NCBI GenBank assembly: GCA_002256205.1
Contig: NKIW01000009.1
Location: 1-64,000 of the forward strand
Source: Rhizobiales bacterium PAR1
GTDB taxonomy: Bacteria; Pseudomonadota; Alphaproteobacteria; Rhizobiales; Beijerinckiaceae
Length of the DNA: 64,000 bases
Reading direction: 5' to 3'
The notes beneath the pieces were generated by a model. It did not search any database, was not told the origin of the DNA, and saw only the letters and a list, made by a program, of their open reading frames with translations. Each line of letters begins with the position of its first letter. The first letter of the stretch is position 1. Shown piece by piece: positions 45,811 to 64,000 of this stretch. A program made the position numbers and the translations under genes.

Positions 45811-46488
45811 TTACTTCGGAATCCGCTCGACCGTGCCATCGAGATGCTGGCCGAGGATGGTGATGAGGCGTTCGGCATCGCGCGCCATCAGCGCGGCAAT
45901 GATCGCGTCATGCTCGGCAAGGCCTTTGGCCCAGTTCTCCGGTGTACGCGCACCGCCGTAACGCACCTGCTTGATCCGGGCCTGAAGCTTGTCATGCGCA
46001 TCGAGCATCACGGCGTTCCCCGCCGCGCGGACGATGGCGGAATGCGTTTCCTGATCGAGCTTGAAATAGCCGAGGCGATCCTTCCGGCCGTAGAGCGCCT
46101 TCATGTCCTCGTGGATTTTGCGGATGCCCGCGAGTTCTCCATCCGAGGCGCGCTCGCAAACGTGACGCGCGGCAGCAAGCTCCAGCGCCTTGATCACCTC
46201 AAGGATTTCGCGCACGTCGCTTTCCGAAAAGCGGCGGACGATCGCGCCTTTCGCCGGGATGATCTCGATCAGCCCCTCGCTGGCGAGCGTCTTGATCGCC
46301 TCGCGCAGCGGCGTACGGGAAACGCCGAGCGAGGCCCCCACCTGCCCTTCGTTGATCCGCGCGCCGGGCGCAAGCCGCCCGTCGATGATCATGTCACGAA
46401 GCTGGTTGAGCACGGCATCGTGCAACGTGACGCGGGTAATCCGCATCGCGCCATCCGCTGGCAAACTGGCGGCGGTTTCCGTAGTCAT
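45811..46488 (-). CDS. GntR-family (FadR subfamily) transcriptional regulator
   Basis: About 225 residues from MTTETAASLPADGAMRITRV. The winged helix contains NEGQVGASLGVSRTPLREAI and SEGLIEIIPAKGAIV; the all-helical FCD effector domain follows (EVIKALELAAARHVCERASD, with metal-type histidines in LAEHDAIIAALMARD and ILGQHLDGTVE). It is the last gene of the minus-strand operon, 81 bp after the amidohydrolase, so it probably regulates that operon in response to an organic-acid or amino-acid-like ligand. A start at 46524 is in frame but less likely. Confidence 0.88.
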   Translation of the reverse strand: MTTETAASLPADGAMRITRVTLHDAVLNQLRDMIIDGRLAPGARINEGQVGASLGVSRTPLREAIKTLASEGLIEIIPAKGAIVRRFSESDVREILEVIKALELAAARHVCERASDGELAGIRKIHEDMKALYGRKDRLGYFKLDQETHSAIVRAAGNAVMLDAHDKLQARIKQVRYGGARTPENWAKGLAEHDAIIAALMARDAERLITILGQHLDGTVERIPK

Positions 46489-46569
46489 GGGCCCAGTTAT
46501 CCTTCCCGTTCCATGGTTCGTCATAGGCGGGAACCCGTGTGGGCTGTCAAGCAGCTCGGCGCGCGAGGA

Positions 46570-47733
46570 TCACGCCTTCACCTTGGGAAAGCGGCTCGAG
46601 CGCTTCGGGTGCCACCATTTCCCCTTGAGCACCACGCCCTCGGAGAGGATCCGCCGGTCGCCGATGAGGTGCTCACCGGTGACGTCGACGTAATCGAACT
46701 TGCCTTCCTTCACGGTGAGGATGGTCGCGTCGCCGAGCGCGCCGACCTTGAGCGAGCCGTATTCCGGACGTCGCAGCGCCATGCCAGCGTTGAGGGTCGA
46801 GGTTTTCACAACATCATAGAGGCTCATGCCAAGGCAGAGGAACTTCGACATCGTGGTGACCTGATCAAACGCCGGACCATCAATGCAGAGCTGATGCACG
46901 TCTGACGAGATCGTATCCGGCTGGAAGCCGTTGGCGAGCATTGCGCGCGCTGTCTTGAAGGCAAACGAGCCCGCGCCATGGCCGATATCGAACAGAACGC
47001 CGCGCTTCCGTGCCGCCAGCACCGCCGGTTTCACTGTGCCCTGCGCGGTGGCGGGCGAATTCGGGAACGGACGGAAGGCGTGGGTCAGCACGTCGCCGGG
47101 GCGGAGCATGTCCAGCACCTCCTCGTAGGAGGGCGGCGGATGATCGATGTGGCACATCAGCGGCATGCCGACTTCCTCAGCCACCTGAAGCGCCATGTTG
47201 AGCGGTGCCGTGCCCTGATCGCCTGAGGAATGCCGCCCGACCCGGACCTTGATGCCGACGATATGCTCGCGGTTTTCATCCGCGATCTTGGCACATTCCG
47301 CCGGGGCCAACAGTTTGATGTTCTCGCTCTCGCCGACCATGATTGTCTTCGAGAAGCCGTAAATGCCAGCGAATGAGACGTGGAGATAGGCAAGAATCCG
47401 CGCTTCCGAGCGCTCGATGACGTGCTTCTGGAAGCCGGCCCAGTTGCCCGGCCCTGCCGAACCGGTATCGACCGAGGTCGTCACGCCCGACGTGCGGCAG
47501 AAATCATCCGCATCGATGCCGAGCGAGGTGCCGCCCCAATAGACATGGGTGTGAAGGTCAATGAGACCGGGCGTGACGATATAGCCAGAGACGTCGCGTA
47601 CTTCCGCCGCGCCCTTCAGATCCTTCCCGAAGCCGGAAACGCGGCCGTTGGTGAAGGCGACGTCCATCACGCCGTCATGGTTCTGCGAGGGGTCGATGAC
47701 CCGCGCGCCCTTCAGGATGAGATCATGCGTCAT
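46570..47733 (-). CDS. Amidohydrolase/deacetylase family metallohydrolase (cyclic-amidohydrolase type)
   Basis: 387 residues of the amidohydrolase superfamily. Metal motifs: VTPGLIDLHTHVYWGG (HxH), EHIVGIKVRVGRHSSG with the lysine that is usually carboxylated, PLMCHIDHPPPSYEEVL and VLTHAFRPFP histidines, and DTISSDVHQL with the catalytic Asp. The N terminus (DLILKGARVIDPSQNHDGVM) and HAFRPFPNSP place it with the amidohydrolase/deacetylase group related to dihydroorotase and hydantoinase. Likely opens a cyclic ureide or hydrolyses an N-acyl bond before the carbamoylase acts. It lies 46 bp after the carbamoylase in the same operon. Confidence 0.85.
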   Translation of the reverse strand: MTHDLILKGARVIDPSQNHDGVMDVAFTNGRVSGFGKDLKGAAEVRDVSGYIVTPGLIDLHTHVYWGGTSLGIDADDFCRTSGVTTSVDTGSAGPGNWAGFQKHVIERSEARILAYLHVSFAGIYGFSKTIMVGESENIKLLAPAECAKIADENREHIVGIKVRVGRHSSGDQGTAPLNMALQVAEEVGMPLMCHIDHPPPSYEEVLDMLRPGDVLTHAFRPFPNSPATAQGTVKPAVLAARKRGVLFDIGHGAGSFAFKTARAMLANGFQPDTISSDVHQLCIDGPAFDQVTTMSKFLCLGMSLYDVVKTSTLNAGMALRRPEYGSLKVGALGDATILTVKEGKFDYVDVTGEHLIGDRRILSEGVVLKGKWWHPKRSSRFPKVKA

Positions 47734-47779: not shown

Positions 47780-48727
47780 TCATTCAGGCAGCACAGCCCC
47801 CTTGCGCTCGACGATCATCCGGTATTGCTCCGGCTCGCGATGGCGAGCAAAATTGAACACGGAATTCTTGTAGCTCTGGCCGAGATCGAGATCGCAGCGG
47901 GCAACAATCAACTCGTCCCCGCGCGTTACGGCCTGCGCAACAATCTCGCCCGTCGGCGCGATGATGCAGGAACCGCCGATCATCTCGCAGCCCTCTTCCA
48001 TGCCACACTTGGCAACGCCGACGACCCATGTTGCATTCTGGTAGGCCGCCGATTGCATGACGAGGTGATTGTGAAAATCGCCAAGACGATCATGCTCCGG
48101 CGCAGGTGGGTTATGCACCGGGGTGTTGTACCCCAGCAGGATCATCTCAACGCCTTGCAGGCCCATCACGCGGTAGCTCTCTGGCCAGCGGCGATCATTG
48201 CAGATCATCTGCCCGAAAAGGCCGGATTGGAGGTCCACCCTGGCGCGATTGACGCCCCAGGATAGGTTTCCGACTTCGAAATAGCGCTTTTCAAGATGCT
48301 GGAAGGCGCGCCATGGCTCGTGCTCGGCATGACCGGGGAGATGAATCTTGCGGTATTTGCCGATGATCTTGCCGGATTTATCGACCAGAATCTGCGTATT
48401 AAAGCGGCGCGTCTTGCCGCCTTCCTCGGTCAATTCGGCAAAACCGAGGGTGAAGCCGATGCCCCATTCGCGCGCGGCGTTGAACAGCGGCGCGGTCTCG
48501 TTCGAGGGCATTTCGCGCTCGAAGAACGTATCCACTTCCGCCTGATCTTCCATGTACCAGCGCGGAAAGAAGGTCGTGAGCGTCAGTTCCGGGAAGGCGA
48601 CGAGGTCGCAGCCGTTGGATCTGGCCTGCTTCAAAAGCTCGATCATCCGGGCGATGACCTGCGGACGGTTTTCAGACCGCTGGATGCCGCCGATCTGCGC
48701 GGCGCCGACCGTGATAACGCGGCTCAT
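47780..48727 (-). CDS. N-carbamoyl-D-amino-acid hydrolase (nitrilase superfamily)
   Basis: 315 residues matching D-carbamoylase. The catalytic triad is visible: Glu47 in AFPELTLTTFFPRW, Lys127 in GKYRKIHLPGH and Cys176 in MICNDRRWPESYRVMG. Substrate-side motifs YNTPVHNPPAPEHDRL and MEEGCEMIGGSCIIAPTGEI also fit. It removes the carbamoyl group of an N-carbamoyl amino acid, releasing CO2 and ammonia. The start overlaps the diaminopropionate ammonia-lyase stop by 4 bp, so the two are coupled. A relaxed substrate (ureido side chain) cannot be excluded. Confidence 0.9.
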   Translation of the reverse strand: MSRVITVGAAQIGGIQRSENRPQVIARMIELLKQARSNGCDLVAFPELTLTTFFPRWYMEDQAEVDTFFEREMPSNETAPLFNAAREWGIGFTLGFAELTEEGGKTRRFNTQILVDKSGKIIGKYRKIHLPGHAEHEPWRAFQHLEKRYFEVGNLSWGVNRARVDLQSGLFGQMICNDRRWPESYRVMGLQGVEMILLGYNTPVHNPPAPEHDRLGDFHNHLVMQSAAYQNATWVVGVAKCGMEEGCEMIGGSCIIAPTGEIVAQAVTRGDELIVARCDLDLGQSYKNSVFNFARHREPEQYRMIVERKGAVLPE

Positions 48728-49872
48728 GGAGTACCCTCCTTACCCGACAACACCTGCTCGGGTATCAAGACTTGTTCGGGCGTTTTGCCAACGAGTTCCG
48801 TGTAAACGGCAGCGTCCGTCGCGCCCTCGGTGCCATAGAGCAGCACGCGCGAGGAGCCATCGAGCCCCAGCGCAGCGCGCATCGCCGGGTTCGCTGCTGC
48901 CTTGAAGAAGCCTGCGAGGCCCGCGACGCCGGATTCCCCGCCGACAACATGGAGGGCCGCCAACTCACGCATCGCGGCGATGGCTTCTGCGTCCGCCACG
49001 GTCATGAAGGCATCCGCGCCGGGTTCAAGGATTTTCCACGCGAGGATGGAAGGCTCGCCGCAGGCAAGGCCCGCGATGATCGTTTCAAGATCACCTGTGA
49101 CGGTCGTCACCTTGCCCGCCGCCGCGCTTTCCGTGAGGCATGCCGCGTTTTCAGGCTCAACGACGATCAGTTTGGGGCGATCCGCGCCGTATTTCTCCCA
49201 ACGATAGGAGAGCACCGCCGCCGCAATGCCGCCGACACCGCCCTGCACGAAGATATGCGTCGGCTTGGCACCGGCTTCTTCGGCTTCCATCGCCAGCACG
49301 GCATAGCCCTGCATCACATCGCGCGGGATATCCTCGTAGCCTGGCCATGAGGTATCCGAGACGATCTGCCAGCCATTTTTGGCCGCGGCTTCCGCAGAAG
49401 CGCGGACGGAATCATCGTAATTATGCCCTTCGCGCACAACCTCAGCACCGAACGAGCGGATCGCCTCCGCCCTTCCCTCGCTGACGCCTTCGTGCACATA
49501 GATCACGGCACGAATGCCGGCGCGGCGCGCGCCCCAGGCCACCGCGCGGCCGTGGTTTCCATCGGTCGCGCAGGTGACAACGAGGCCTTCCTTGCCACGT
49601 TTGACAACGAGGCGGTCCACCGCATAGGCGCCGCCGAGGGCTTTGAAACTTTTCAGCTCGAAGCGCCGGCCCTCATCCTTGTAGAGCACCTGCCCGACGT
49701 CAGTCTTGGCCGCGAGCGCCGGCAGATCATGTAGCGGCGTCGGCGTGTAGCCGGCCCAACCGCTGATGTGCGCGCGTGCCTCTTTCGCGCGGGCGATAGA
49801 AAGGATGGCCTGAAGCTCCGGACCATAGGCGCGCGCCCGGTCAAGCTTCGGGTTGAGAAGGAAATCAGGCAT
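48724..49872 (-). CDS. dpaL: Diaminopropionate ammonia-lyase (PLP-dependent, fold type II)
   Basis: 382 residues. It aligns by motif with E. coli YgeX/DpaL: PLP lysine Lys77 in RFELKSFKALGGAYAV, Asp104 in CATDGNHGRAVAWGA and Asp173 in IVSDTSWPGYEDIPRDVMQG, the two acidic residues that act on D- and L-diaminopropionate. GLACGEPSILAWKIL and GGESGVAGLAGF complete the fold. Converts 2,3-diaminopropionate to pyruvate and two ammonia. It overlaps the importer ATPase gene by 8 bp and the carbamoylase by 4 bp. In E. coli, ygeX also lies near an M20 gene (ygeY) and hyuA. Confidence 0.9.
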   Translation of the reverse strand: MPDFLLNPKLDRARAYGPELQAILSIARAKEARAHISGWAGYTPTPLHDLPALAAKTDVGQVLYKDEGRRFELKSFKALGGAYAVDRLVVKRGKEGLVVTCATDGNHGRAVAWGARRAGIRAVIYVHEGVSEGRAEAIRSFGAEVVREGHNYDDSVRASAEAAAKNGWQIVSDTSWPGYEDIPRDVMQGYAVLAMEAEEAGAKPTHIFVQGGVGGIAAAVLSYRWEKYGADRPKLIVVEPENAACLTESAAAGKVTTVTGDLETIIAGLACGEPSILAWKILEPGADAFMTVADAEAIAAMRELAALHVVGGESGVAGLAGFFKAAANPAMRAALGLDGSSRVLLYGTEGATDAAVYTELVGKTPEQVLIPEQVLSGKEGTP

Positions 49873-50905
49873 TTTTTATGGTTCCGGTCAGCAGCGGGTT
49901 TTCCGCCGCCGGGAGGTCATGGAGGTGGCAGGCCGCGACGTGTTTATGCGCCATCTGCCGCAGCTCCGGCTCTTCCGAGCGGCAGCGATCAAACGCATAG
50001 GGGCAGCGGGTGTTGAAGCGGCAGCCCTTCGGCGGGTTAATCGGGCTTGGCACATCGCCCTTCAGCAGGATGCGCTCGCGCTTGGCGTCCGGATCGGGGA
50101 TCGGCACCGCTGAGAGCAGCGCTTTCGTGTAGGGGTGCATTGGCGCGGAGAAAATCTGGTCGCGCGTGCCCTTCTCGACGATCTTGCCGAGATACATCAC
50201 CGCGATGCGATGCGTCATGTGCTCCACAATCGCGAGATCATGGCTGATGAACAACAGCGCGAGGCCCAGTTCCTTCTGCAGATCACAGAGGAGATTGACG
50301 ATCTGCGCCTTCACCGAAACGTCGAGCGCAGAAACGGCCTCGTCGCAGATAATGATATCTGGCTCGGCGGCGAGCGCACGAGCAATGCCGATGCGCTGGC
50401 GCTGCCCGCCGGAGAATTCATGCGGCCAGCGGTTCACCGCGTCGCGCGGCAGACCGACCTTGTCCATCAGCTTGCCGATGCGTTCGTCGATCTCGGCTTC
50501 GTTCGTCGCGAGCCCGAAATTGGTAATCGGCTCGGCGAGAATATCCCGCACCCGCATCCGCGGATTGAGCGAGGAAAACGGGTCCTGAAAAACGACTTGC
50601 ATCGATTTGCGCAAGGGCCGCAGCGCGGCACTGGAAAGCTCGTCAATGCGCTGACCGTTCAGCACCACCTGCCCTTCGGTGATGGTGAAGAGGCGCAGGA
50701 TTGCCTTGCCAACGGTGGATTTGCCGCAGCCGGATTCGCCAACCAGCGAGAGTGTCTCGCCGCGATCAATCGAGAACGAGACGCCATCAACCGCGTAAAC
50801 AAAGCCGGTAATGGTCGAGAACAGCCCGCCGGTAATGGCAAAGTGCTTCTTGAGGTCGTTGACCTGAAGGATCGGCTCGCCGGGATGGGTCACAGGCGTG
50901 CTCAT
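49865..50905 (-). CDS. ABC transporter ATP-binding protein, DppF/OppF type
   Basis: 346 residues: Walker [18 protein letters not shown]-loop [16 protein letters not shown], signature [15 protein letters not shown], Walker [15 protein letters not shown] (Ala where Pro is usual) and H-loop [14 protein letters not shown]. The C-terminal oligopeptide domain retains the cysteine cluster [15 protein letters not shown]. Second ATPase of the importer coupled to the diaminopropionate/carbamoylase genes; overlaps both neighbours. Confidence 0.93.
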
Positions 50906-51891
50906 GCAACCTCCGTGGCTTTTTCAGCGTAGTGACACGCCGCGATCTGCCCCGGCGCCTTCACTTCCAGCCCCGGCGCGACCTTGCGGCAAAGATCCGT
51001 CGCGATGGGGCAACGGCCGGCGAAGACGCAGCCCTCGATCTTCTTCTTGAGGCTCGGGACAAGGCCGGGAATTTCGGCCAAGCGCGCCGAGCCGCCATGA
51101 ATGGAGGAGCCGAGTTTCGGCACCGCACCGAGCAGACCCTGCGTGTAGGGGTGCTTAGGCGATTTGAAGAGCTGGCGCACCGGCGCCTCCTCCACCTTGC
51201 GGCCCGCGTACATCACCACCACCTGATCCGCGACTTCCGCCACGACGCCGAGATCATGCGTGATCAGCATGATCGCCGCACCCACGCGGGTCTTGAGATC
51301 GCGCATCAGATCGAGAATTTGCGCCTGAATGGTTACGTCGAGCGCGGTGGTCGGCTCGTCGGCGATCAGAAGTTTGGGCGAGCAGGCAAGCGCAATCGCG
51401 ATCATCACGCGCTGGCGCATCCCGCCCGAAAGCTGGTGAGGGTATTCGTTGACGCGCCGAGCGGGCTCGGGAATGCCGACCAGCGTGAGCATATCGATGG
51501 CGCGCTGGTGCGCATCGGCCTTCGAGAGGTTCTGATGGAGGCGCAGCGTTTCGCCGATCTGCTTGCCGATGGTGAGCACCGGGTTGAGGCTCGTCATCGG
51601 CTCCTGAAAGATCATCGAGATTTCATTGCCGCGAATGGCCCGCATCTCATCCGGTGTGCAATCGAGCAGGTTGCGGCCTTCAAAGCGGATTTGCCCGGCC
51701 ATCTTGCCCGGCGGCTCCGGGATCAGGCGCAGGATCGACATCGCGGTGACGGATTTGCCGCAACCGGATTCGCCGACGACAGCAAGCGTCTGCCCCGCCT
51801 CAATGTTGAAGGAAACACCATCGACGGCGCGGTTCACCCCGTCCGGCGTACGGAAATGCGTCTGGAGCTGGTCGATTTCAAGCAGAGCCAT
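50902..51891 (-). CDS. ABC transporter ATP-binding protein, DppD/OppD type
   Basis: 329 residues: Walker [22 protein letters not shown]-loop [16 protein letters not shown], signature [16 protein letters not shown] and Walker [16 protein letters not shown]-terminal oligopeptide domain with [15 protein letters not shown]. Overlaps the DppF-type gene by 4 bp and follows the DppC-type gene by 2 bp, so expression is tightly coupled. Confidence 0.93.
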
Positions 51892-51893
51892 GA

Positions 51894-52802
51894 TCAGAGC
51901 CTTTTGGCCATGCGTGGATCAAGCGAATCTCGCAACCCGTCGCCGAGAAGGTTCACGGCCAGAACGGTGATTGAGAGGAAAATCGCCGGAAACAGGATGA
52001 TGTGGGGCTTCACCTGCCAGAGCGTGCGCCCCTCGGCCATGATGTTTCCCCACGAGGGCACGGAGGGCGGGATACCAGCGCCGATGAAGGAGAGAATGGC
52101 TTCCACGATCATCGCCGAGGCGCAAATATAGGTCGCCTGCACGCTCATCGGCGCCATCGTGTTCGGCAGGATATGGCGGAAAATCAGCCTTGGCGTTTTG
52201 GTGCCGGCGGCAATCGCGGCATCGACATAGGGCTGTTCGCGCAAGGTGAGCACCACGCCGCGCACAAGACGCGCAACGCGTGGAATCTCTGCCACCGTAA
52301 TCGCGATGATAACATTCTGCACTGAACCACGCGTCAGCGCCATCAGCGCCACCGCGAGCAGGATCGGCGGGATCGACATCATGCCGTCAATGATGCGCAT
52401 GATCAGGCTATCGGCCCAGCGCACCATGCCGGAGACAAGACCGATGGCGAGACCGGCGATCGAGGCAAGCACTGCCACGGAAAATCCGACGAGCAGCGAG
52501 ACCCGCGCCCCGTAAATCACGCGCGAGTAAATGTCGCGCCCCAATTGATCGGTGCCAAACCAGTAATCCGCGCTCGGCACGCGGGTGCGTTTCGCGGGAG
52601 CCAGCGCTGTGGGGTCCACGGTCCACAAGAGCGGCGCAGCGAGGGCGAGGAAGAGCATCAGCAACAGCAGCCCAGCGCCCACCGCAATGGCCGGGTTGCG
52701 GCGGCAATAGCCGATGAAACCGGTCAGTGGTGCGCGGGCCGGCAGCACATCCGGCAGCTGGCGCGCAACGACAACGTCTTTTTCCGTGAGAAGGCGGGTC
52801 AT
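51894..52802 (-). CDS. ABC transporter permease, DppC type
   Basis: 302 residues. Cytoplasmic leader, first helix [20 protein letters not shown], periplasmic [23 protein letters not shown] loop [20 protein letters not shown] and the closing [18 protein letters not shown]. About six membrane segments. Forms the pore with the DppB-type subunit encoded 19 bp upstream. Confidence 0.93.
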
Positions 52803-52821: not shown

Positions 52822-53763
52822 TCAATACCGAATTCTCGGGTCGATCAGCGTGTAGATGAGATCGACAAGGAGATTGATCAGCACGTAAACGAAGGAAAAC
52901 ATCAAAACGACACCCTGAATCACCGGATAATCGCGCCGCAAAATCGCATCGACGGTCAGGCGACCAAGGCCGGGAATGGCAAAGACGCTTTCGGTGACCA
53001 CCGCTCCGCCGATCAGCAGCGCGATGCCGATGCCGATCACGGTAACGATGGGAATCGCCGCGTTTTTCAGCGCATGCACGAAAAGAATACTCGGCTGCGA
53101 GACCCCTTTCGAGCGCGCAGTGCGGATATAATCCTGTTGCAACACTTCCAGCATCGAGGCGCGGGTGATGCGCGCGATCAGCGCGATATAGACAAAACCG
53201 AGCGTGATCGCCGGGAGGATGAGGTTCTCGAACCACGGCCAGACGCCCTGAGAGAGCGGCGTATAGCCCTGCACCGGCAGCCAATCGAGCTGAAGCGCGA
53301 AGATATAAGCGAGGAGGTAGCCCACCACGAAGACCGGCACCGAAAATCCGGTGACAGAGACCGCCATGGCGAGGCGGTCGATCCAGCTTCCGGCCTTCCA
53401 TGCGGCGATCACGCCCATGGGCACCGCGATGCCGATCGCCAGCACCAGCGTCACCGCCATCAGGCTGACAGTCGGCTCGATGCGCTGCTTGATGAGCTGC
53501 GTCACCGGCAGCGATGTGAAAATCGAGATGCCAAGATCGCCCCGAAGGACATTGAACAACCATTCGCCGAAGCGGATCAAAAACGGCCGATCCAGCCCGA
53601 GACCCTGCCGGATGCGCTCGACGTCCTGCGGGGTAGCCTGATCACCCGCAATCACCGCCGCCGGATCGCCGGGCGCAATATAAAGCAGCGAAAACACGAA
53701 CAGCGCGACGAAGGCCATCACCGGAATGGTCGCGATGATCCGCCGGACGATAAACGCAAACAT
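52822..53763 (-). CDS. ABC transporter permease, DppB type
   Basis: 313 residues from MFAFIVRRIIATIPVMAFVA, the standard DppB start, with LLYIAPGDPAAVIAGDQATP and about six membrane segments. EAA loop ARSKGVSQPSILFVHALKNA and end NLLVDLIYTLIDPRIRY are typical. It lies 71 bp after the binding-protein gene in the nine-gene operon. Confidence 0.93.
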   Translation of the reverse strand: MFAFIVRRIIATIPVMAFVALFVFSLLYIAPGDPAAVIAGDQATPQDVERIRQGLGLDRPFLIRFGEWLFNVLRGDLGISIFTSLPVTQLIKQRIEPTVSLMAVTLVLAIGIAVPMGVIAAWKAGSWIDRLAMAVSVTGFSVPVFVVGYLLAYIFALQLDWLPVQGYTPLSQGVWPWFENLILPAITLGFVYIALIARITRASMLEVLQQDYIRTARSKGVSQPSILFVHALKNAAIPIVTVIGIGIALLIGGAVVTESVFAIPGLGRLTVDAILRRDYPVIQGVVLMFSFVYVLINLLVDLIYTLIDPRIRY

Positions 53764-53834: not shown

Positions 53835-55433
53835 TCAGGCCTTCGAAACGCCCCAGAAGAAGGGCAACGGGCCCTTCACGATGCCGGTGACATTCTTCCT
53901 CCACGCGGTGTAGCTGAGGAAGAAGCCGGTCGGCGCGAAGATAACGTCTTCGAGCGCAGCCTTATTCAGAGCAGCGATCGCCGCCTTCTCTTCGGTCAGA
54001 TCCTTGGCGTCGAACCACGAGCTGACGTACTTCTCGGTTTCCGGGCTATCCGGCCAGCCGAACCAGGCCTTCTCGCCGTTGCCGCGGATGGCGGTATACG
54101 GTGCCGGGTTGAGGCAGTCCGCGCCGGCGTGCCAAGTGTGGAACATGCTCCAACCGCCCTGCCCCGGCGGGGTTTTCTGCGCACGGCGGGCGCCCACGGT
54201 ACCCCAGTCGGTTGCGACGAAATCGACGGTCATGCCCATCTTTTTCAGAAGATCGGCGGTAACATCACCCATCGACTTGGTGATCGGCTGGTCCTGCGCC
54301 ACGACGCAGGTGACGGGCTGGCCGGCATAGCCCGATTCAGCCAGAAGTTTCTTGGCTGCGTCGAGCGACTTCATCTTAAGAATTTCACCGCCCGATTCGG
54401 TATAAAGCGGGGTGTCGGGCGTGAAGAAACCCGGCAGCGGCTTCCAGAGTTTGGTGTCGTCGCCGACAACCGCGCGCATGAAATCTTCCTGATTCATCGC
54501 CGCGAGAACCGCACGGCGGGCCTTCACGTTGTTGAATGGTGCATGGAGGTGGTTCATGCGGAACGCGCCGATGTTACCCAGCGGATCAGCGATATCGACC
54601 GAGATATTGCGGTTGCCCTTGAGCACCGGCACGAGATCCGGCAGCGGCTGTTCCCACCAGTCGACTTCGCCGTTCTGAAGCGCGGCGGAGGCGGTCGCAG
54701 GGTCCGGCATAATGACCCACTCGATACGGTCGACCATCATCTTCTTGCCGCCGGCAAGCCACGAAGCGGCTTCGTCACGCGGCTTGTAATCGGCGAAGCG
54801 TTCGAACACCGCCTTGGCGCCCGGCACCCACTCTTCCTTCTTGAACTTCATCGGGCCGGAGCCGATGTATTCGGTGATCTGCTTGAAGGGGTCGGTTTCG
54901 GCAATGCGCGCAGGCATGATGAAGGTGCAGGGCGCATTGTTCTTGCCAAGCGCGAGCAGCATCTTCGGATAGGGCTTCTTCAGCGCCCAGCGGAAGGTAA
55001 GATCATCGACCGCGACAAGCTCGTTCTGGAGCGCGCGGAGCATCAGGCCCATCGGGTCGCGCTGCGACCAACGCACAAGGCTCTGCACGGCATCCTTCGC
55101 CAAAACCGGCGTGCCATCGTGGAATTTCATGCCCGCGCGGAGCTTGAAGGTCCAGACAAGGCCATCTGCCGAGACTTCTTCCTTCTCGACCATCTGCCGC
55201 TGCGGAACGAGGCTATCGTCAACGCCGTACAGCGTATCCCAGACGAGCGCTGCCGCGTTGCGGACGACGTATTGGGTACCCCAGATCGGGTCAAAATTGG
55301 CAAGGTTCGCCTGCGGCACGAAGCGCAAGGTCTTGGCTGCAGCGCCCTGTGACAGTGCTGGCGTCGCCAGACCGCCGCTCGCCGCCAGAAGCGCCGCGCC
55401 GCCCGTCGATTTCATGAAAGTCCTGCGATCCAT
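53835..55433 (-). CDS. ABC transporter substrate-binding protein, family 5, Tat-exported
   Basis: 532 residues. The start at 55433 gives MDRRTFMKSTGGAALLAASG, a twin-arginine signal with cleavage near ALSQG. SBP_bac_5 features: LRFVPQANLANFDPIWGTQY, KFHDGTPVLAKDAVQSLVRW and NHLHAPFNNVKARRAVLAAM. First gene of the operon leading through the importer to dpaL, carbamoylase, amidohydrolase and GntR. A perfect 19-bp palindrome lies 39-57 bp upstream. The ligand is unknown; a ureido or N-carbamoyl amino acid or a peptide is inferred. Confidence 0.9.
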   Translation of the reverse strand: MDRRTFMKSTGGAALLAASGGLATPALSQGAAAKTLRFVPQANLANFDPIWGTQYVVRNAAALVWDTLYGVDDSLVPQRQMVEKEEVSADGLVWTFKLRAGMKFHDGTPVLAKDAVQSLVRWSQRDPMGLMLRALQNELVAVDDLTFRWALKKPYPKMLLALGKNNAPCTFIMPARIAETDPFKQITEYIGSGPMKFKKEEWVPGAKAVFERFADYKPRDEAASWLAGGKKMMVDRIEWVIMPDPATASAALQNGEVDWWEQPLPDLVPVLKGNRNISVDIADPLGNIGAFRMNHLHAPFNNVKARRAVLAAMNQEDFMRAVVGDDTKLWKPLPGFFTPDTPLYTESGGEILKMKSLDAAKKLLAESGYAGQPVTCVVAQDQPITKSMGDVTADLLKKMGMTVDFVATDWGTVGARRAQKTPPGQGGWSMFHTWHAGADCLNPAPYTAIRGNGEKAWFGWPDSPETEKYVSSWFDAKDLTEEKAAIAALNKAALEDVIFAPTGFFLSYTAWRKNVTGIVKGPLPFFWGVSKA

Positions 55434-55736
55434 TTTCCGTCTCCAGCTCCTGAGGCCATGGCGCACGTGGTGTTTCGAGGCCCTCGAAACCGTACCCCAT
55501 CACAGTGTTTCTTTGCATGGATCACAAAGCCGGCGACCGCCCTTGCTTTCCACGCTCTCCCGATAGCGGCGGGGTTCACCCCCTGCCCTGTTTTTAACGG
55601 GACGTATGACGCCGGCAGCAAGCCTTGTGCCATTCGTTCCCTTTCGCAGAACAGCTTTCCAAGATCGCTGCCCGTTGGAGAAGATAGTTTCACCCCTTAT
55701 TCAGAATGGCAAGATTGGATTGTTGCGACTAACAGT
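55434..55736. other. 303-bp regulatory gap upstream of the binding-protein gene
   Basis: No gene was found. The gap contains the palindrome at 55472-55490 and probably the promoter of the nine-gene minus-strand operon. The far side ends at the amidase stop, so the amidase and this operon are separate or partly read through. Confidence 0.6.
55472..55490. promoter_or_regulatory. Perfect 19-bp palindrome upstream of the nine-gene operon
   Basis: GTTTCGAGG-C-CCTCGAAAC has 9-bp perfect arms around a single base. It is 39 bp from the binding-protein start, in operator or leader position. The GntR protein encoded at the operon end is a candidate binder, although the sequence is not a standard FadR-type site. 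As RNA it could also fold with a 3-nt loop. Confidence 0.6.
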
Positions 55737-57149
55737 TCAGCCGCCGCGCCGGGGTTTGGTGATCCGCGCGAAGGGATTTCCAGTCTCATAGGCCGCTGAA
55801 GCGCGCAAAACGATGCGATCCGCGCCGAACGGGCCGACGATTTGCAAGCCGACCGGCAAGCCTGCCGCCGTCAATCCACAGGGAACAGAGGCCGCTGGCG
55901 CCTGCGTGATGTTGAAGGGGTATGTAAATGGCGTCCAGCGTGTCCAGTCCTCGCCATAGCGCCCGTGTGCAGGCGTCAGGCGCGACGCCTCAAAAGCAGG
56001 CACCGCAAGGCTCGGCGTTAGCAGGAGATCGTAGCGCTCGTGAAAGCGGGCCATCGCCAGCGCGAGTGTGTTGCGCTGGTTGAGCAACGCGTCGACATAG
56101 GCCGCTGCGGTGACTTTCTCGCCCTCTACCGCCACAGCGACGAGGCCGGGGTCCATCTTCTTCCGGTCTGCGGCGGAAATCGACCGCAACGCCAGCGCCG
56201 CGCCGGCTGACCAAAGCGTCATCAGCGTGTCGATGGGATCGACAAAGCCGGGATCGGCCCGCTCAACAATCGCGCCCAAGGCCTCGAAGCGCCGAGCCGC
56301 CGCCTCGGTGAGGGCCGCAACCTCAGGGTCGACCTCGACATCAAAGCCGAGCTTGGGCGAGAAGGCGATCCTGAGGCCCTTCACCCCATCGCCGATGCCC
56401 TCAAGGTAGTCGGGGATCGGGGCCAACGTCGCGGTCATGTCACGCTTATCGGGACGCCCGACGATATTCATCGCCAGCGCCGTTTCACGCACCGAGCGCG
56501 TCAGCGGGCCGAGATGGGCGAGAAAGCCCATCGTGGAGACCGGATAGGCCGGGATATGGCCATAGGTCGGCTTGAGCCCGAAGACGCCAGTGAAAGCGGC
56601 GGGAATCCGCACAGAGCCTGCCCCATCGGTTCCGAAGTGCATCACGCCGAGGTTCAGCGCTGAGCAGGCCGCAGCGCCGGCGGAGGAGCCACCGGTGGTC
56701 ATCCGCGTATCCCACGGATTGCGGGTGATGCCAGAGAGCGGACTATCGGAAAGACCTTTCCAGCCGTATTCGGGCATGGTGGTTTTGCCGAGGAACACGG
56801 CCCCCGCCTCACGTAACCGCGCCGTGATGGGGGCATCCTCTGTCGCCGGCGCGCTCGAAGCCAACGCCGACCCACGACGACAGGGCCAGCCTGCAACGAC
56901 GAGATTATCCTTGATCGTTACTGGTATGCCATCAAGCGGGCCGAGGGCCTCGCCCTTCATCAGCCGCGCCTCGGCGGCCTTTGCCATGGCGAGCGGAACG
57001 GCTTCGTCGCGGACGATGAAGGCGTTGATCTCAGGCTCGAAGCGGTCGATCCGCGCGAGGGTGTCCCGCGCCACCTCGACCGGCGACAGCGTTTTCGCGC
57101 GGTAGGCTGCGGCCAGACCAAAGGCATCGAGATCGGCGATTTCCGTCAT
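55737..57149 (-). CDS. Amidase (amidase-signature family)
   Basis: 470 residues. The Ser-cisSer-Lys triad is readable: Lys80 in GIPVTIKDNLVVAG, Ser155 in TTGGSSAGAAACSALN and Ser179 in GTDGAGSVRIPAAFTG. The glycine before the nucleophile is preceded by Ala instead of the usual Gly, a minor variation. Family members hydrolyse aliphatic or aryl amides and related ureides. No signal peptide. Lies downstream of the carbamoylase and PLP-enzyme genes on the same strand. Confidence 0.9.
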   Translation of the reverse strand: MTEIADLDAFGLAAAYRAKTLSPVEVARDTLARIDRFEPEINAFIVRDEAVPLAMAKAAEARLMKGEALGPLDGIPVTIKDNLVVAGWPCRRGSALASSAPATEDAPITARLREAGAVFLGKTTMPEYGWKGLSDSPLSGITRNPWDTRMTTGGSSAGAAACSALNLGVMHFGTDGAGSVRIPAAFTGVFGLKPTYGHIPAYPVSTMGFLAHLGPLTRSVRETALAMNIVGRPDKRDMTATLAPIPDYLEGIGDGVKGLRIAFSPKLGFDVEVDPEVAALTEAAARRFEALGAIVERADPGFVDPIDTLMTLWSAGAALALRSISAADRKKMDPGLVAVAVEGEKVTAAAYVDALLNQRNTLALAMARFHERYDLLLTPSLAVPAFEASRLTPAHGRYGEDWTRWTPFTYPFNITQAPAASVPCGLTAAGLPVGLQIVGPFGADRIVLRASAAYETGNPFARITKPRRGG

Positions 57150-57207: not shown

Positions 57208-58437
57208 TCAGGCATTCGCAACGTCGAGCACCACCTGCAAAAGCACGTTGGCCCCGGAAGCGATGTCCGCATCAGTCGAGAATTCCTTCGGGTTGTGCGA
57301 TAGCCCGCCGATGGAGGGCACGAAGATCATCGCCGTCGGGCAGAGTTGCGCCATCATCTGCGCGTCGTGGCCCGCGCCGGAGATCATGCGGCGCACCGGC
57401 ATACCGAGGCTTTTTGCCGCCCCTTCGACCTTGGCGATCATGCCGTCATCGAAGGGTGTCGGCGGGAAGCGTGCGAGATCACGCGTGGTGATCGTGAGAT
57501 CCATCTGCCGCGCCATATCTTCAGCGAAAGCGCGGATCGCGGCTTCGGCCTCATCAAGCCGGGCCTGATCGGGATTGCGCAAATCCAGCGTCACGGTGAC
57601 AGTTTCCGGCACGACGTTCACATTGCCGGGTTCGACGCGGATGAAACCCATATTCGCGAGCTGGCCGGGGATGCGCGTGGTGGTCTCATAGGCGAAGACA
57701 TTGACGCGCGCAGCGAGAAGGCCCGCGTCTTTCCGGTATTTCATTGGGGTGGTGCCGCCGTGGTTGGGCTGCCCGCCAAAGGTCATTTCGAGCCAGGTGA
57801 TGCCCTGAATACCGGTAACGGCGCCAATGCCGCCGCCCTCATGCTCCAGCACCGGTCCCTGCTCGATGTGGAGTTCGAAATAGGCATGCGCCTTCAGGAA
57901 GCCCGGCTTTTCCGGGCCCTCGTAGCCGATGCGGCGCAGCTCGGTGCCGAGCACGAAACCATCAGCATCCGCCTGGGCCTGCGCTTCCGCGACGCTCATG
58001 CCGCCGAGCCAGACATAAGAACCCAGCATATCCGGATGGAAACGCGCGCCCTCCTCGTTCGTGAAGGCGATCACCGCGATATCGCGTTTGGGGCGGATGT
58101 CGAGATCATTGAGGGTCGCAACAACCTCCAGCCCGCCGATCACGCCGAGCGCACCATCAAAGCGCCCGCCGGTCGCGACGGTATCGATATGCGAACCCAT
58201 CACAACCGCCGGGCCTTCCTCCTGCCCCTTGAGGATGCCGACGATATTGCCGATGGCATCGACCTTCACATCAAGGCCCAGCGCCCGCATCTCGGCGCAG
58301 AGCCAGTCGCGTCCTGCCTTGTCCTCATCCGAAAGCGCGAGGCGGCGGCAACCGCCTTCGGGCGTCGCGCCAATACTGGCGAGCGCAGCAAGACGCGAGA
58401 CGAGGCGGGAACCGTCGATGCGCTGGTTGGTCTGCAT
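57208..58437 (-). CDS. M20 Zn-dependent hydrolase of the N-carbamoyl-L-amino-acid hydrolase / allantoate amidohydrolase group
   Basis: 409 residues from MQTNQRIDGSRLVSRLAALA. Motifs: VMGSHIDTVATGGRFDGALG (metal His/Asp and bridging Asp), AFTNEEGARFHPDMLGS (Glu pair), YFELHIEQGPVLEHEG (His), FGGQPNHGGTTPMKYRKDA (lid Asn/His) and ISGAGHDAQMM with SIGGLSHNPKEFS. This motif set defines the L-carbamoylase, ureidoglycolate and allantoate amidohydrolase group. It complements the D-carbamoylase at 47780, and sits 11 bp from the PLP-enzyme gene. Confidence 0.9.
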   Translation of the reverse strand: MQTNQRIDGSRLVSRLAALASIGATPEGGCRRLALSDEDKAGRDWLCAEMRALGLDVKVDAIGNIVGILKGQEEGPAVVMGSHIDTVATGGRFDGALGVIGGLEVVATLNDLDIRPKRDIAVIAFTNEEGARFHPDMLGSYVWLGGMSVAEAQAQADADGFVLGTELRRIGYEGPEKPGFLKAHAYFELHIEQGPVLEHEGGGIGAVTGIQGITWLEMTFGGQPNHGGTTPMKYRKDAGLLAARVNVFAYETTTRIPGQLANMGFIRVEPGNVNVVPETVTVTLDLRNPDQARLDEAEAAIRAFAEDMARQMDLTITTRDLARFPPTPFDDGMIAKVEGAAKSLGMPVRRMISGAGHDAQMMAQLCPTAMIFVPSIGGLSHNPKEFSTDADIASGANVLLQVVLDVANA

Positions 58438-58448
58438 CTTTCGCCTCC

Positions 58449-59606
58449 CTAGACCGCAGCGGCCTTGATCGCGGCATCGAGGTCCGCGAAGAGGTCGTTC
58501 ACGTCCTCCACGCCGGTCGAGAGGCGCAGGAGATCCAGCGGGCACGGCGTCCCTGCCCCTTCAATCGAGGCGCGATGCTCAATGAGGCTTTCGACACCGC
58601 CGAGCGAGGTCGCGCGCTTCCAAAGTGTGACATTGGCCGCTGCGCCGATCGCCTGCCTCTCTCCGCCTCTGAGGCGAATGGAGAGCATGCCGCCGAAACC
58701 GCCGGTCATCTGCCGCGCCGCGAGCGCATGGCCGGGATGCGAGGCGAGGCCCGGATAGAGCACCTCATGTACATGGGCGTGGTTGGCAAAGCGGGTCGCC
58801 AGCTCCATCGCGCTTTCGCAGGAGGCTTTGACGCGCAAGGAGAGCGTGCGCATGCCGCGAATGAGCAAAAAGGCTTCGAATGGCCCGAGGATCAGCCCCT
58901 GAATAGCGCGAACACGCTTGATGCGGGTCCAGTATTCATCTTCGGCGCGTGTCGCGAGCGCGCCGGCAAGCACATCGGAATGGCCGTTGAGGTATTTCGT
59001 CGCCGAATGCATCACGATATCCGCGCCAAAATCGAGCGGACGGGTGAGGATCGGCGTCGCGCCGGTCGAATCGACCGCGACGCGGGCACCGGCGGCATGG
59101 GCGATCTCGGAAACACCTGCAATATCGGTGATCGACCACAGCGGGTTGGAGGGCGTCTCGAGCCAGACGAGTTTCGTTGCGCCCGGCACCACGGCGGCGC
59201 GGACGGTATCCAGATCCGAGGTATCGACAAACGTCGTCTTGAGGCCCCATTCGGCGGCATCGTTCAGCAGCCAGTTGCGCAAGGCCCAGTACATGACGGT
59301 CGGCGCGACAATATGATCACCGGGCTTCAGCGCGAGGAACACCGCGACCGCCGCGCTCATACCTGAGCCGAGCACGATGGCGGCTTTCGCATCCTCCAGC
59401 ATCGCGATGATGCTTTCAGCCTCACGCACGGTTTCGTTGTCCGGGCGACCGTAGATATTGCCCGTGCGATACTGGTTATCCGGGTCGCGCAGGAAGGTCG
59501 TGGTGACGTGGATCGGCGGCACAACGGCGCGAGTCGGCTCGTCGATCTTGCCCATGGCCTGAGCGGCCAGCGTGCGGGGGGACCAGAGTTTCGGATTTTT
59601 AGCCAA
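58449..59606 (-). CDS. Cys/Met-metabolism PLP-dependent enzyme (cystathionine gamma-synthase/lyase family)
   Basis: 385 residues. VTTTFLRDPDNQYRTGNIYG with RPDNETVREAE near the N terminus, the PLP lysine in MHSATKYLNGHSDVLAGAL, and the C-terminal ERQAIGAA...SLGGVESLIEHRAS are typical of the family. Activities include cystathionine gamma-lyase/synthase and methionine gamma-lyase; which one cannot be told. Cluster with carbamoylase and amidase suggests catabolism of a sulfur-containing N-carbamoyl or hydantoin-derived amino acid. First gene of this minus-strand group, divergent from the M20D gene. Confidence 0.88.
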   Translation of the reverse strand: MAKNPKLWSPRTLAAQAMGKIDEPTRAVVPPIHVTTTFLRDPDNQYRTGNIYGRPDNETVREAESIIAMLEDAKAAIVLGSGMSAAVAVFLALKPGDHIVAPTVMYWALRNWLLNDAAEWGLKTTFVDTSDLDTVRAAVVPGATKLVWLETPSNPLWSITDIAGVSEIAHAAGARVAVDSTGATPILTRPLDFGADIVMHSATKYLNGHSDVLAGALATRAEDEYWTRIKRVRAIQGLILGPFEAFLLIRGMRTLSLRVKASCESAMELATRFANHAHVHEVLYPGLASHPGHALAARQMTGGFGGMLSIRLRGGERQAIGAAANVTLWKRATSLGGVESLIEHRASIEGAGTPCPLDLLRLSTGVEDVNDLFADLDAAIKAAAV

Positions 59607-59823: not shown

Positions 59824-60990
59824 ATGGCTATCGATCCGTCCATTCTCGCTCTCAAGGATGAAGTCTCGCGCTGGCGACGGGATTTCCATGAACATCCGGA
59901 GCTTCTGTACGAGGTGCACCGCACCGCGCGCATCGTCGCGGAAAAGCTGCGTTCTTTTGGCTGCGATGAGGTGGTCGAGGGAATCGGCAAAACCGGTGTT
60001 GTCGGCGTCATCCACGGGCGCAACGGGCCGGGCGGCAAGGTCGTCGGCCTGCGTGCGGATATGGATGCGCTCCCGATCGAGGAGGAAACCAACCTCCCGC
60101 ATCGCTCGAAAACACCGGGAACCATGCACGCCTGCGGGCATGACGGCCACACTTCCATGTTGCTCGGCGCGGCAAAACATCTTGCCGCAACGCGTGACTT
60201 CGACGGCACCACCATCGTGATCTTCCAGCCCGCCGAAGAAGGCGGCGCGGGTGGCAAGGCGATGGTAGAAGACGGGTTGATGACCCGCTGGGGCATTCAG
60301 GAAGTCTATGGCATGCACAACATGCCGGGCATCGCGCCGGGGCATATTGCGCTGCGTCGCGGCCCGATCATGGCGGCAGCGGACCAGTTCACCATCGAAA
60401 TCGAGGGCAAGGGCGCGCATGCGGCCGCCCCACACCTCGGGATCGATCCGGTGTTCATCGGTTCGCAGATGGTCGGCGCGCTGCAGTCCATCGCTTCACG
60501 CAACGCCGACCCGCTCAAATCGGTCGTCGTCTCGGTGACGATGTTCCACGCCGGCACCGCCTTCAACATCATCCCCTCGCGCGCGACGCTCACCGGCACG
60601 GTGCGCACGCTGGAAGCTTCGATGCGGGATCTCGCCGAGACGCGCTTCCGCGCCATCGTCGAGGCAACGGCAAAAATGCACGGCGCCGAGGTGCGCATCA
60701 CCTATGATCGCGGCTATCCTGCGACGGTCAACCACCCGGCGGAGGCCGATTATGCCGCCGCGATCGCCAAGAAAACCTTCGGCGCGGACGCAGTGGACGA
60801 TACTGTCGCGCCGATGATGGGCGGCGAGGATTTCTCCTACATGTTGCTGGAGCGCCCCGGCGCCTATGTCTTCATCGGCAACGGTGATTCAGCGGGCCTG
60901 CATCACCCTGCCTACGACTTCAATGACGATGTGCTGCCGGCGGGTATCCAGTTCTGGAGCGAAATCGCGAAGGCCAGAACAGCGGCGTGA
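59824..60990 (+). CDS. M20D-family amidohydrolase (hippurate hydrolase / N-acyl-amino-acid hydrolase type)
   Basis: 388 residues. RRDFHEHPELLYEVHRTARI, GLRADMDALPIEEETN, MHACGHDGHTSMLLGAAKHL (metal ligands), IFQPAEEGGAGGKAMVEDGL (catalytic Glu), YGMHNMPGIAPG and MMGGEDFSYMLLERPGAYVF make the complete M20D set. Members deacylate N-acetyl, N-benzoyl or N-carbamoyl-like amino acids, and indole-acetyl conjugates. Divergent from the PLP enzyme across 217 bp with no other gene. Confidence 0.92.
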   Translation: MAIDPSILALKDEVSRWRRDFHEHPELLYEVHRTARIVAEKLRSFGCDEVVEGIGKTGVVGVIHGRNGPGGKVVGLRADMDALPIEEETNLPHRSKTPGTMHACGHDGHTSMLLGAAKHLAATRDFDGTTIVIFQPAEEGGAGGKAMVEDGLMTRWGIQEVYGMHNMPGIAPGHIALRRGPIMAAADQFTIEIEGKGAHAAAPHLGIDPVFIGSQMVGALQSIASRNADPLKSVVVSVTMFHAGTAFNIIPSRATLTGTVRTLEASMRDLAETRFRAIVEATAKMHGAEVRITYDRGYPATVNHPAEADYAAAIAKKTFGADAVDDTVAPMMGGEDFSYMLLERPGAYVFIGNGDSAGLHHPAYDFNDDVLPAGIQFWSEIAKARTAA

Positions 60991-61412: not shown

Positions 61413-62420
61413 TCAGCTCCGCCCCTCTTCGACCGCATGGCAGGCCACACCGCCATTTATTTCCGGGATTTCACGCATTGCCGGCGCCTCGGCCTTGCAG
61501 CGGGCGTTGGCGAGCGGACAGCGCGGATGGAAGGTGCAGCCTGAAGGCGGCGAGATCGGGTTCGGGATTTCCCCCGCGACCATGACGCGGGCGCGGCCGG
61601 ACATCGCAAGATCCGGCACGGCATCCAGCAGCATCCGCGTGTAGGGGTGGCGCGGCGCGGAGAAGAGCTGCTTGCTTGTCGACACCTCGACCAGACGCCC
61701 AAGATACATCACGCCGATGCGATCCGCCATATGACGGACCACAGCGAGATTGTGGCTGATGAAGAGGTATGTGAGACCGAATTCCTTCTGCAAATCACGC
61801 ATCAGGTTCAGGATTTGTGCCTGAACCGAGACATCAAGCGCCGAGGTTGGCTCGTCGCAGACGATGAATTCTGCGCTCGACGCCAAGGCACGCGCAATAG
61901 CGATCCGCTGGCGCTGGCCGCCGGAAAATTCGTGCGGAAACTTCTTGCCATCATCCGGGTGGAGGCCGACCAGTGTCAGTAATTCGCCGATGCGCGCCGT
62001 TACAGCCTCGCCCTTGAGTAGACCAAAGGCGTGGATCGGCTCGGCAATGATCCGCTCGACGCGCCAGCGCGGGTTGAGGCTCGCGTAGGGATCCTGAAAG
62101 ATCATCTGGATACGCTTGCGCAGAGCCTGCCGCTCGGCGCTGCCCTGTACTTTCGTCATCGAGACGCCGTCGATGGTCACCTCGCCACCCGAGACCGGCA
62201 GCAGTCCGACCGCCATACGAGCGACAGTGGACTTGCCGGAGCCGGATTCGCCCACCAGCGCAAAGGTCTCACCCTTGCGGATATCGAACGAGAGCCCGTC
62301 GACCGCCTTGAGCCAGGCTTTCGGTGCCCCCTCCAGCACGCGGTTGAGCCAGGGGCGCGAGACGTCGAAGACGCGCTTGAGATCACGAACCTCGACGAAG
62401 GCTTTCGAGTTCTCGCTCAT
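61413..62420 (-). CDS. ABC transporter ATP-binding protein, DppF/OppF type
   Basis: 335 residues: Walker A GESGSGKSTVARMAVG, Q-loop [16 protein letters not shown], signature [16 protein letters not shown], Walker [15 protein letters not shown] and H-loop YLFISHNLAVVRHM (Asn after His is a change from Asp). The C-terminal oligopeptide domain carries GCTFHPRCPLANARC. Part of a further dipeptide-type importer continuing to the right edge; overlaps the next ATPase by 4 bp. Confidence 0.92.
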   Translation of the reverse strand: MSENSKAFVEVRDLKRVFDVSRPWLNRVLEGAPKAWLKAVDGLSFDIRKGETFALVGESGSGKSTVARMAVGLLPVSGGEVTIDGVSMTKVQGSAERQALRKRIQMIFQDPYASLNPRWRVERIIAEPIHAFGLLKGEAVTARIGELLTLVGLHPDDGKKFPHEFSGGQRQRIAIARALASSAEFIVCDEPTSALDVSVQAQILNLMRDLQKEFGLTYLFISHNLAVVRHMADRIGVMYLGRLVEVSTSKQLFSAPRHPYTRMLLDAVPDLAMSGRARVMVAGEIPNPISPPSGCTFHPRCPLANARCKAEAPAMREIPEINGGVACHAVEEGRS

Positions 62421-63427: not shown

Positions 63428-63445
63428 ATCAGGGCCTTGCACGCC

Positions 63446-64000
63446 TCACCTCAACTTCGGATTCAAGGCATCGCGCAGCCAGTCGCCGAGCAGATTCACC
63501 GCCAGCACGATGATCGCCAGCGTCGCGCCGGGGAAAGTGACGATCCACCAGTCGCCCGAGAAGAGATACTTGTTGCCAATGGAGATCAGCGTGCCGAGCG
63601 AGGGCTGCGTCGCCGGCAGGCCGACGCCGAGAAACGAGAGCGTCGCCTCGGTGATGATCGCGAGGCCAAGATTGATCGTGAGGATCACCAGCACTGGGCC
63701 GATGACGTTCGGAAGCACATGGCGCACCATGATCACCGGCGCGGTAAGCCCGACAAGCCGCGCAGCATGGACGTAATCCTTGTTCTTCTCGACCATGGTC
63801 GAGCCCCGGATGGTGCGGGCATATTGCACCCAGAAGCTGAGGCCGATCGAAATCACCAATACGGGAATCGCCGTGTCCTCGCGCGATGAGCCCTTGAACA
63901 ACGCGTGAACCACGCCGTCGATCAGCAGTGCGATCAGGATCGCCGGGAAAGTGAGCTGCACATCCGCAACCCGCATGATGATGGAATCGACCTTGCCGCC
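63446..64000 (-). CDS. ABC transporter permease, DppC type (5' end outside window)
   Basis: About 184 residues are visible, and the reading is open to the right edge, beginning within GGKVDSIIMRVADVQLTFPA. The EAA loop YVHAARLVGLTAPVIMVRHV, the ATLSFLGVGLPATQPSLGTL segment and the end VNLLGDWLRDALNPKLR identify the DppC class. The N-terminal half, the DppB-type gene and the binding protein should lie to the right. Confidence 0.9.
   Translation of the reverse strand, partial: GGKVDSIIMRVADVQLTFPAILIALLIDGVVHALFKGSSREDTAIPVLVISIGLSFWVQYARTIRGSTMVEKNKDYVHAARLVGLTAPVIMVRHVLPNVIGPVLVILTINLGLAIITEATLSFLGVGLPATQPSLGTLISIGNKYLFSGDWWIVTFPGATLAIIVLAVNLLGDWLRDALNPKLR

Follow-up and report, generated by a model that had tools for sequence, protein, structure and literature searches.

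Gene content of the dpaL operon

The window, by which we mean the whole 64,000-nucleotide stretch of DNA analysed, holds a run of assigned genes between 45811 and 59606 that all lie on the minus strand. In the direction of transcription the run opens with a gene for a PLP enzyme of the cystathionine gamma-synthase/lyase family (58449-59606), which among relatives was seen at this place only in locus L009, although the fetched flanks stop at about this point. It is followed by hyuC (57208-58440), encoding a 410-aa M20-type amidase of the hydantoinase/carbamoylase family that represents a second carbamoylase, and by an amidase gene of the PRK06169 type (55737-57149; 614 bits on NF004815, cut-off 506). 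Then come the genes of an oligopeptide-type importer, namely an SBP_bac_5 substrate-binding protein (53835-55466), permeases of the OppB/DppB type (52822-53763) and the OppC/DppC type (51894-52802), and ATPases of the OppD/DppD type (50902-51891) and the OppF/DppF type (49865-50905). Family matches identify these products except for the OppC/DppC-type permease, an open reading frame named from its place between the other importer genes, which is conserved in relatives, and not from a family scan of its own sequence. The last ATPase gene overlaps by 8 bp with dpaL (48724-49872), encoding a 382-aa protein of the diaminopropionate ammonia-lyase family, and dpaL overlaps by 4 bp (48724-48727 in the list of open reading frames) with the gene for a 315-aa N-carbamoyl-D-amino-acid hydrolase of the nitrilase superfamily (DCase, 47780-48727). 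An amidohydrolase/deacetylase gene (46570-47733) and a gene for a GntR/FCD regulator (45811-46524; family match), probably the local regulator, close the run.

A sequence-only reading of this DNA had pointed to the 4 bp overlap of dpaL and the D-carbamoylase gene, to a set of catalytic residues in both products and to a dedicated importer upstream of dpaL, and the open reading frames, the alignments and the importer genes bear this out. The same reading made no mention of hyuC, and its proposal that the reactions run in operon order does not agree with the order of transcription, in which hyuC, the amidase and importer genes, dpaL, the DCase gene and the amidohydrolase gene follow one another.

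Identities of the encoded enzymes

The window DpaL scored 457 bits on the family model NF006058 (cut-off 276) and 324 bits on the YgeX equivalog TIGR03528, below its cut-off of 532, and it shares 39% identity with E. coli YgeX. Its residues K77, D104 and D173 correspond to K77, D120 and D189 in E. coli YgeX, and all 81 sequences compared, the window's and those of the 80 loci, retain the three. Six other PALP proteins of the window genome were aligned, with the weakest PALP match excluded and some of these positions falling outside the alignment, and none of them matched D104 or D173. By model and residues, we assign the protein to the diaminopropionate ammonia-lyase family, outside the YgeX equivalog.

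The DCase carries the Glu-Lys-Cys triad (E47, K127, C176), each of its 11 best matches among solved structures bears the name N-carbamoyl-D-amino-acid hydrolase (E 4e-126 to 3e-114), and it is present as a single copy in the window genome at E 1e-60. HyuC scored 409 bits on TIGR01879 (cut-off 204), and its PDB matches include N-carbamoyl-L-amino acid and beta-alanine amidohydrolases; its placement in a tree is described below. The product of 46570-47733 had been read from the sequence as a cyclic-amidohydrolase-type, hydantoinase-like enzyme. This identity was rejected, since the protein reached only 29.8 bits on the D-hydantoinase model TIGR02033 (cut-off 393) and passed the amidohydrolase/deacetylase model NF006689 with 437 (cut-off 371). 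Its best solved-structure match is PDB 2ogj, which we take to be Atu3266, a COG3964 amidohydrolase, and we presume the window enzyme to be of the COG3964 type as well.

Past the operon, a divergent gene at 59824-60990 encodes a 388-aa M20-type amidohydrolase-like protein and 61413-63976 holds parts of a second Opp/Dpp-type importer, both named from their translations only. On the same contig, more than 100 kb from the operon, the window genome has a second hydantoin-type cluster (L113, G000:C7:154000-169539) with Opp-type importer genes, a D-hydantoinase, a distant M20 carbamoylase, an SsnA-like amidohydrolase and a hydantoin-racemase-like gene.

Linkage of dpaL with DCase and hyuC genes

Genome contigs were scanned for DpaL relatives, and the best 80 of 459 were taken as loci. 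A DCase or HyuC gene was counted when it lay within 10 kb on the same strand, with at least 45% identity for DCase. DCase accompanies DpaL in 63 of the 80 loci and DCase and HyuC together in 49; in the 65 loci whose flanks reach 3 kb or more on each side, the numbers are 54 and 44. At the same threshold, HyuC without DCase was seen only on two short contigs (L058 and L076). Any one of the 41 genomes concerned (the window's and 40 carrying loci) has between 0 and 3 DCase genes at E 1e-60, whereas 63 of 80 loci are linked, and a chance adjacency of dpaL and DCase was therefore rejected.

The order of genes varies. Close relatives of the window show the window's order, and other loci show hyuC-dpaL-DCase-amidohydrolase. 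In Burkholderiales the order is RpiR-dpaL-hyuC-DCase-MFS permease-YgeY-like, and in Alcaligenes importer genes sit between hyuC and DCase. Rhizobiaceae and Martelella have a D-hydantoinase and a PotA-type importer divergent from dpaL-hyuC-DCase. Both Roseibium loci read amidase-dpaL-DCase-hydantoin racemase, the racemase gene lying directly 3' of DCase, with a D-hydantoinase about 9 kb off. Across the 80 loci a same-strand COG3964-type gene occurs in 20, a D-hydantoinase in 10 and a YgeY-like hydrolase in 18. The first two never share a locus, which fits mutual replacement, a pattern confounded by kinship. In three loci (L021, L022, L025) the COG3964-type amidohydrolase directly follows DpaL and no DCase was found, and for this reason the COG3964-type enzyme may itself release DAP (2,3-diaminopropionate) from a D-configured derivative.

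RidA genes are present in 17 of the 80 loci, 16 of these with a COG3964-type gene, which fits an enamine product; none was found in the window. In the sister operons L010-L018 and L020, the COG3964-type gene is followed by genes for RidA and a D-serine-dehydratase-like PLP enzyme, and the latter enzyme was likewise not found in the window.

At E 1e-90, DpaL was detected in 11 of 17 genomes of the window's genus and in 1 of 20 from the family's other genera, therefore the dpaL locus is an accessory trait. Mapped on the DpaL tree, DCase linkage shows 10 changes and has therefore been gained or lost repeatedly.

For a control starting from DCase, 385 genomes of the same class were searched; 67 had a match, and the 40 best matches, not counting the window's own, were taken as loci. 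DpaL lay within the fetched stretch at 9 of these 40 loci, some of which are on short contigs. DCase-HyuC pairs with no DpaL nearby also exist, their HyuC genes comprising 4 members of a 45-row clade described below and 4 more distant ones. Therefore DCase is common to other pathways, and the DCase-HyuC pair serves other purposes too. The expectation that the dpaL-carbamoylase pairing would be conserved outside this strain thus holds when loci are approached through DpaL, but the pairing is not obligatory for DCase. In a DCase tree, the 63 DpaL-linked rows stand largely apart from the remaining 17 DCases found in the 41 genomes, with 2 label changes against a mean of 15.7 for shuffled labels (0 of 500 shuffles as low as 2), in a sample gathered through DpaL, which favours separation.

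Relation to the reductive uric-acid pathway

The chemistry of a reductive uric-acid pathway was reported in 2025. In the published account, uric acid is converted through yanthine, ureidomethyl-hydantoin (UMH), 2,3-diureidopropionate (DUPA), albizziin and DAP to pyruvate, the final step being that of DpaL/YgeX (PMC12507026). It also states that E. coli YgeY and YgeX turn albizziin into pyruvate and that YgeX is equally active on the two enantiomers of DAP, L and D (PMC12507026). Its culture experiments showed UMH and albizziin, and a low level of albizziin was present in fresh LB (PMC12507026); cross-feeding on pathway intermediates is therefore plausible. Opinions differ on the ureido group that is removed first, and the configuration has been proposed to be R (PMC12990295), which suits a D-carbamoylase. 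The sequence-only reading knew of no described pathway with this gene set, a statement overtaken in part by the published conversion of albizziin to pyruvate (PMC12507026). Among the matches listed from the open-access literature, we found no report of a pathway joining DpaL to a D-carbamoylase.

We searched for the head of the pathway in the same 41 genomes, including the window's and excluding that of locus L075. SsnA exceeded its family cut-off in none of them, the best window-genome match reaching 175 bits against a cut-off of 455. Nor did YgfK in any, UacX-type replacements lying outside this search. Matches to YgfK below the cut-off occurred in 12 of the 41 genomes, all at model positions of at least 433, the general oxidoreductase part. 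An SsnA-like gene more than 100 kb off scored higher on the models for N-ethylammeline chlorohydrolase and 5'-deoxyadenosine deaminase, below those cut-offs too. In 10 further DpaL genomes SsnA again did not exceed its cut-off, and a search of the 80 loci with E. coli XdhD and YgeW gave one XdhD-like match and no YgeW. That the window genome encodes the reductive uric-acid pathway in full was rejected because neither SsnA nor YgfK exceeded its cut-off. Since the same holds in all 41 genomes, these dpaL clusters are probably entered at some compound other than uric acid itself.

An exchanged slot in SsnA clusters

The Hyphomicrobiales MAG bog_931 (G482), which comes from a bog, has a dpaL without DCase behind a xanthine permease gene (L050), on a contig that starts inside a pyruvate:ferredoxin oxidoreductase gene. 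A second contig (G482:C158, L191) carries HyuA, a YgfK-like protein, an Amidohydro_3 enzyme, HyuC, RpiR, XdhD and SsnA together, and ends within the start of a pyruvate:ferredoxin oxidoreductase gene; the two contigs may be neighbours. The Amidohydro_3 enzyme is of the same Pfam family as C. difficile UacY. The HyuC shares 65-67% identity with its eight best locus matches, all from Burkholderiales dpaL clusters, and the RpiR shares 40-42% with the RpiR of dpaL clusters.

SsnA of this kind was found at E 1e-40 in 4 of 151 genomes, G482 and its relatives. When 398 genomes of the phylum were searched for SsnA at E 1e-45, the single match lay in a cluster of the E. coli type. The four related clusters (L191 in G482 and L198-L203 in G898, G870 and G913) have a common RpiR-XdhD-SsnA core. 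Beside it, G898 and G913 carry ygeY-ygeW-yqeA, with 29-32%, 64-65% and 44-46% identity to the respective E. coli proteins, whereas G482 and G870 carry HyuC and the Amidohydro_3 enzyme in this slot instead. Among the four genomes DpaL was found only in G482, on the other contig; around the SsnA clusters of G870, G898 and G913 the fetched stretches showed no dpaL, and a DCase was seen around none of the four.

In the HyuC tree, the G482 and G870 proteins fall within a clade (support 96/93) of 45 rows, 39 of them DpaL-linked, 4 not, and 2 being these. The clade is sister to the group of 14 that contains the window's HyuC, at a fork with 91/90, under the mark for strong support, and the window's HyuC shares 50-55% identity with those of the uric-acid clusters. 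From these sequence relationships we infer that HyuC of this kind can cleave a ureido group between DUPA and DAP, and that DCase would do the job of UacY or YgeW in dpaL-hyuC-DCase clusters. The exchange is the strongest link we found between the operon and uric-acid breakdown, and it suggests a uric-acid pathway with interchangeable tail modules.

Proposed function and alternatives

D-carbamoylases cleave the alpha-N-carbamoyl (alpha-ureido) group of D-amino acids. Because of this, the DCase more likely makes albizziin from 2,3-diureidopropionate than cuts the beta-ureido group of albizziin, and HyuC is the better candidate for the other ureido group. We put at about even the chance that the operon scavenges ureido-capped diaminopropionate (DUPA, albizziin or their hydantoin) by way of DCase, HyuC and DpaL, and we infer its substrate, order of cuts, enzyme replacements and accessory roles as follows. 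The importer would take up a ureido- or hydantoin-type derivative of DAP, DCase would cleave the D/R form at its alpha (2-)ureido group, HyuC would remove the remaining ureido group or act on the L form, and DpaL would convert DAP to pyruvate and ammonia. The amidase and the COG3964-type enzyme would possibly deacylate a side chain or take the slot of the D-hydantoinase. Such a pathway would be the tail of the reductive uric-acid pathway, detached from its head and rebuilt with other hydrolases.

The gene content expected of the tail is present, namely DpaL and two predicted ureido-cleaving enzymes, and kin of the HyuC stand in two SsnA clusters, whereas a DCase was seen in none. In favour of the ureido-DAP scavenging reading are the linkage of DpaL with DCase and HyuC in varied gene orders, the D-hydantoinase, YgeY-like and racemase genes of other loci, the separation of DpaL-linked DCases on the tree, the gene content of G482 with the slot exchange, and the published intermediates. 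We rate it no higher because three of the four SsnA clusters showed no dpaL nearby and all four lacked a nearby DCase in the fetched stretches. Also weighing against it are the missing SsnA and YgfK matches over the cut-offs, the 9 of 40 count from the DCase side, the 39% identity of DpaL to YgeX with its score below the equivalog cut-off, and the modest similarity of the window's HyuC to those of the uric-acid clusters. The operon is probably a variant of the known pathway's tail. A bolder version, which we hold only tentatively and regard as having the odds somewhat against it, is a widespread undescribed pathway of Pseudomonadota that scavenges uric-acid intermediates of others (ureidomethyl-hydantoin, diureidopropionate, albizziin). 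In it, the natural role of D-carbamoylases would be to free (R)-2,3-diureidopropionate of its 2-ureido group, a step for which E. coli has the carbamoyltransferase and C. difficile the D-aminoacylase.

The same genes could instead serve general use of D- and L-hydantoins or N-carbamoyl-amino acids, DCase taking the D form and HyuC the L form of one alpha-ureido acid, and DpaL consuming both enantiomers of mono-carbamoylated DAP (for example from 5-aminomethylhydantoin) or serine-like products. This would agree with the DCase-HyuC pairs that lack DpaL, with the joint presence of D-hydantoinase, DCase, hydantoin racemase and DpaL in Roseibium, with the host's separate same-contig cluster of D-hydantoinase, distant M20 carbamoylase and hydantoin-racemase-like gene, and with the equal activity stated for YgeX on both enantiomers (PMC12507026). 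However, a sister-clade HyuC fills the YgeY/YgeW slot of uric-acid clusters, and the YgeY-like hydrolase in 18 of 80 DpaL clusters would be superfluous for a mono-ureido substrate, and we consider this explanation rather doubtful. Scavenging of N-acyl-DAP or D-peptides, with the amidase and the COG3964-type enzyme stripping acyl groups and carbamoyl removal incidental, is unlikely: the recurrence of two carbamoylases from different superfamilies with DpaL argues against it, although the operon does combine an oligopeptide-type importer with both enzymes, and dpaL genes without DCase lie beside M20-family hydrolases (L038, L048, L070, L081) and gamma-glutamyltransferase (L038, L055).

The sequence-only reading had albizziine or 2-oxoimidazolidine-4-carboxylate imported, the ring opened by the amidohydrolase, the carbamoyl group removed by the D-carbamoylase and the product cleaved by DpaL. 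The dpaL-DCase adjacency speaks for this scheme, as does albizziin being a real intermediate that YgeY and YgeX convert to pyruvate and that occurs at a low level in fresh LB (PMC12507026). The established alpha-specific chemistry of the D-carbamoylase family, an amidohydrolase that is not hydantoinase-like and the three loci in which this enzyme follows DpaL with no DCase found all weigh against it, and as a whole it appears improbable. Its albizziine idea is partly supported: a putative ureido-diaminopropionate cargo gains from the widespread linkage and from the tie to a pathway with ureido-DAP intermediates (PMC12507026), but the adjacent D-carbamoylase more likely acts on the alpha-ureido than on albizziine's beta-ureido group.

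Comparison with known systems

According to PMC12507026, the E. coli reductive uric-acid cluster comprises xdhD-ygfM, ygfK, ssnA, hyuA, ygeW, ygeY, ygeX and yqeA, and the C. difficile variant has uacX and uacY. Like these clusters, the window's operon has DpaL/YgeX for its last step, and the two ureido groups of DAP would, by prediction, be removed by distinct enzymes, one of them M20-type. Unlike them, it lies in a genome without SsnA or YgfK over the cut-offs, has DCase and HyuC in place of YgeW/UacY and YgeY, and adds a dedicated oligopeptide-type importer, a COG3964-type enzyme and an amidase.

Clusters of D-hydantoinase, D-carbamoylase and hydantoin racemase underlie the industrial hydantoinase process, and D-carbamoylases and hydantoinases have been used for decades in D-amino acid production; to our knowledge, their natural purpose has been unclear. 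The window's DCase belongs to the same family as those of such clusters, and the Roseibium relatives hold all three enzymes, but the window's DCase is coupled to DpaL, and a specific amino-acid product is therefore implied. The conserved coupling to DpaL would offer a natural substrate class for D-carbamoylases and hydantoinases. Scavengers of the uric-acid pathway perhaps exist outside the gut, and the slot filled would predict a function for several hydrolase families.

Two minor observations concern neighbours of dpaL. In L038 and L055, DpaL without DCase adjoins gamma-glutamyltransferase, in L038 together with an ArgE/DapE-type M20 deacylase, neighbourhoods that suggest scavenging of other N-substituted diaminopropionates. 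In Phreatobacter, a gene of the M81/MlrC-type metallopeptidase family (L032:5926-7431, minus strand) lies upstream of dpaL-DCase, and a sequence cluster, not compared directly with this gene, occupies a similar place in five other loci.
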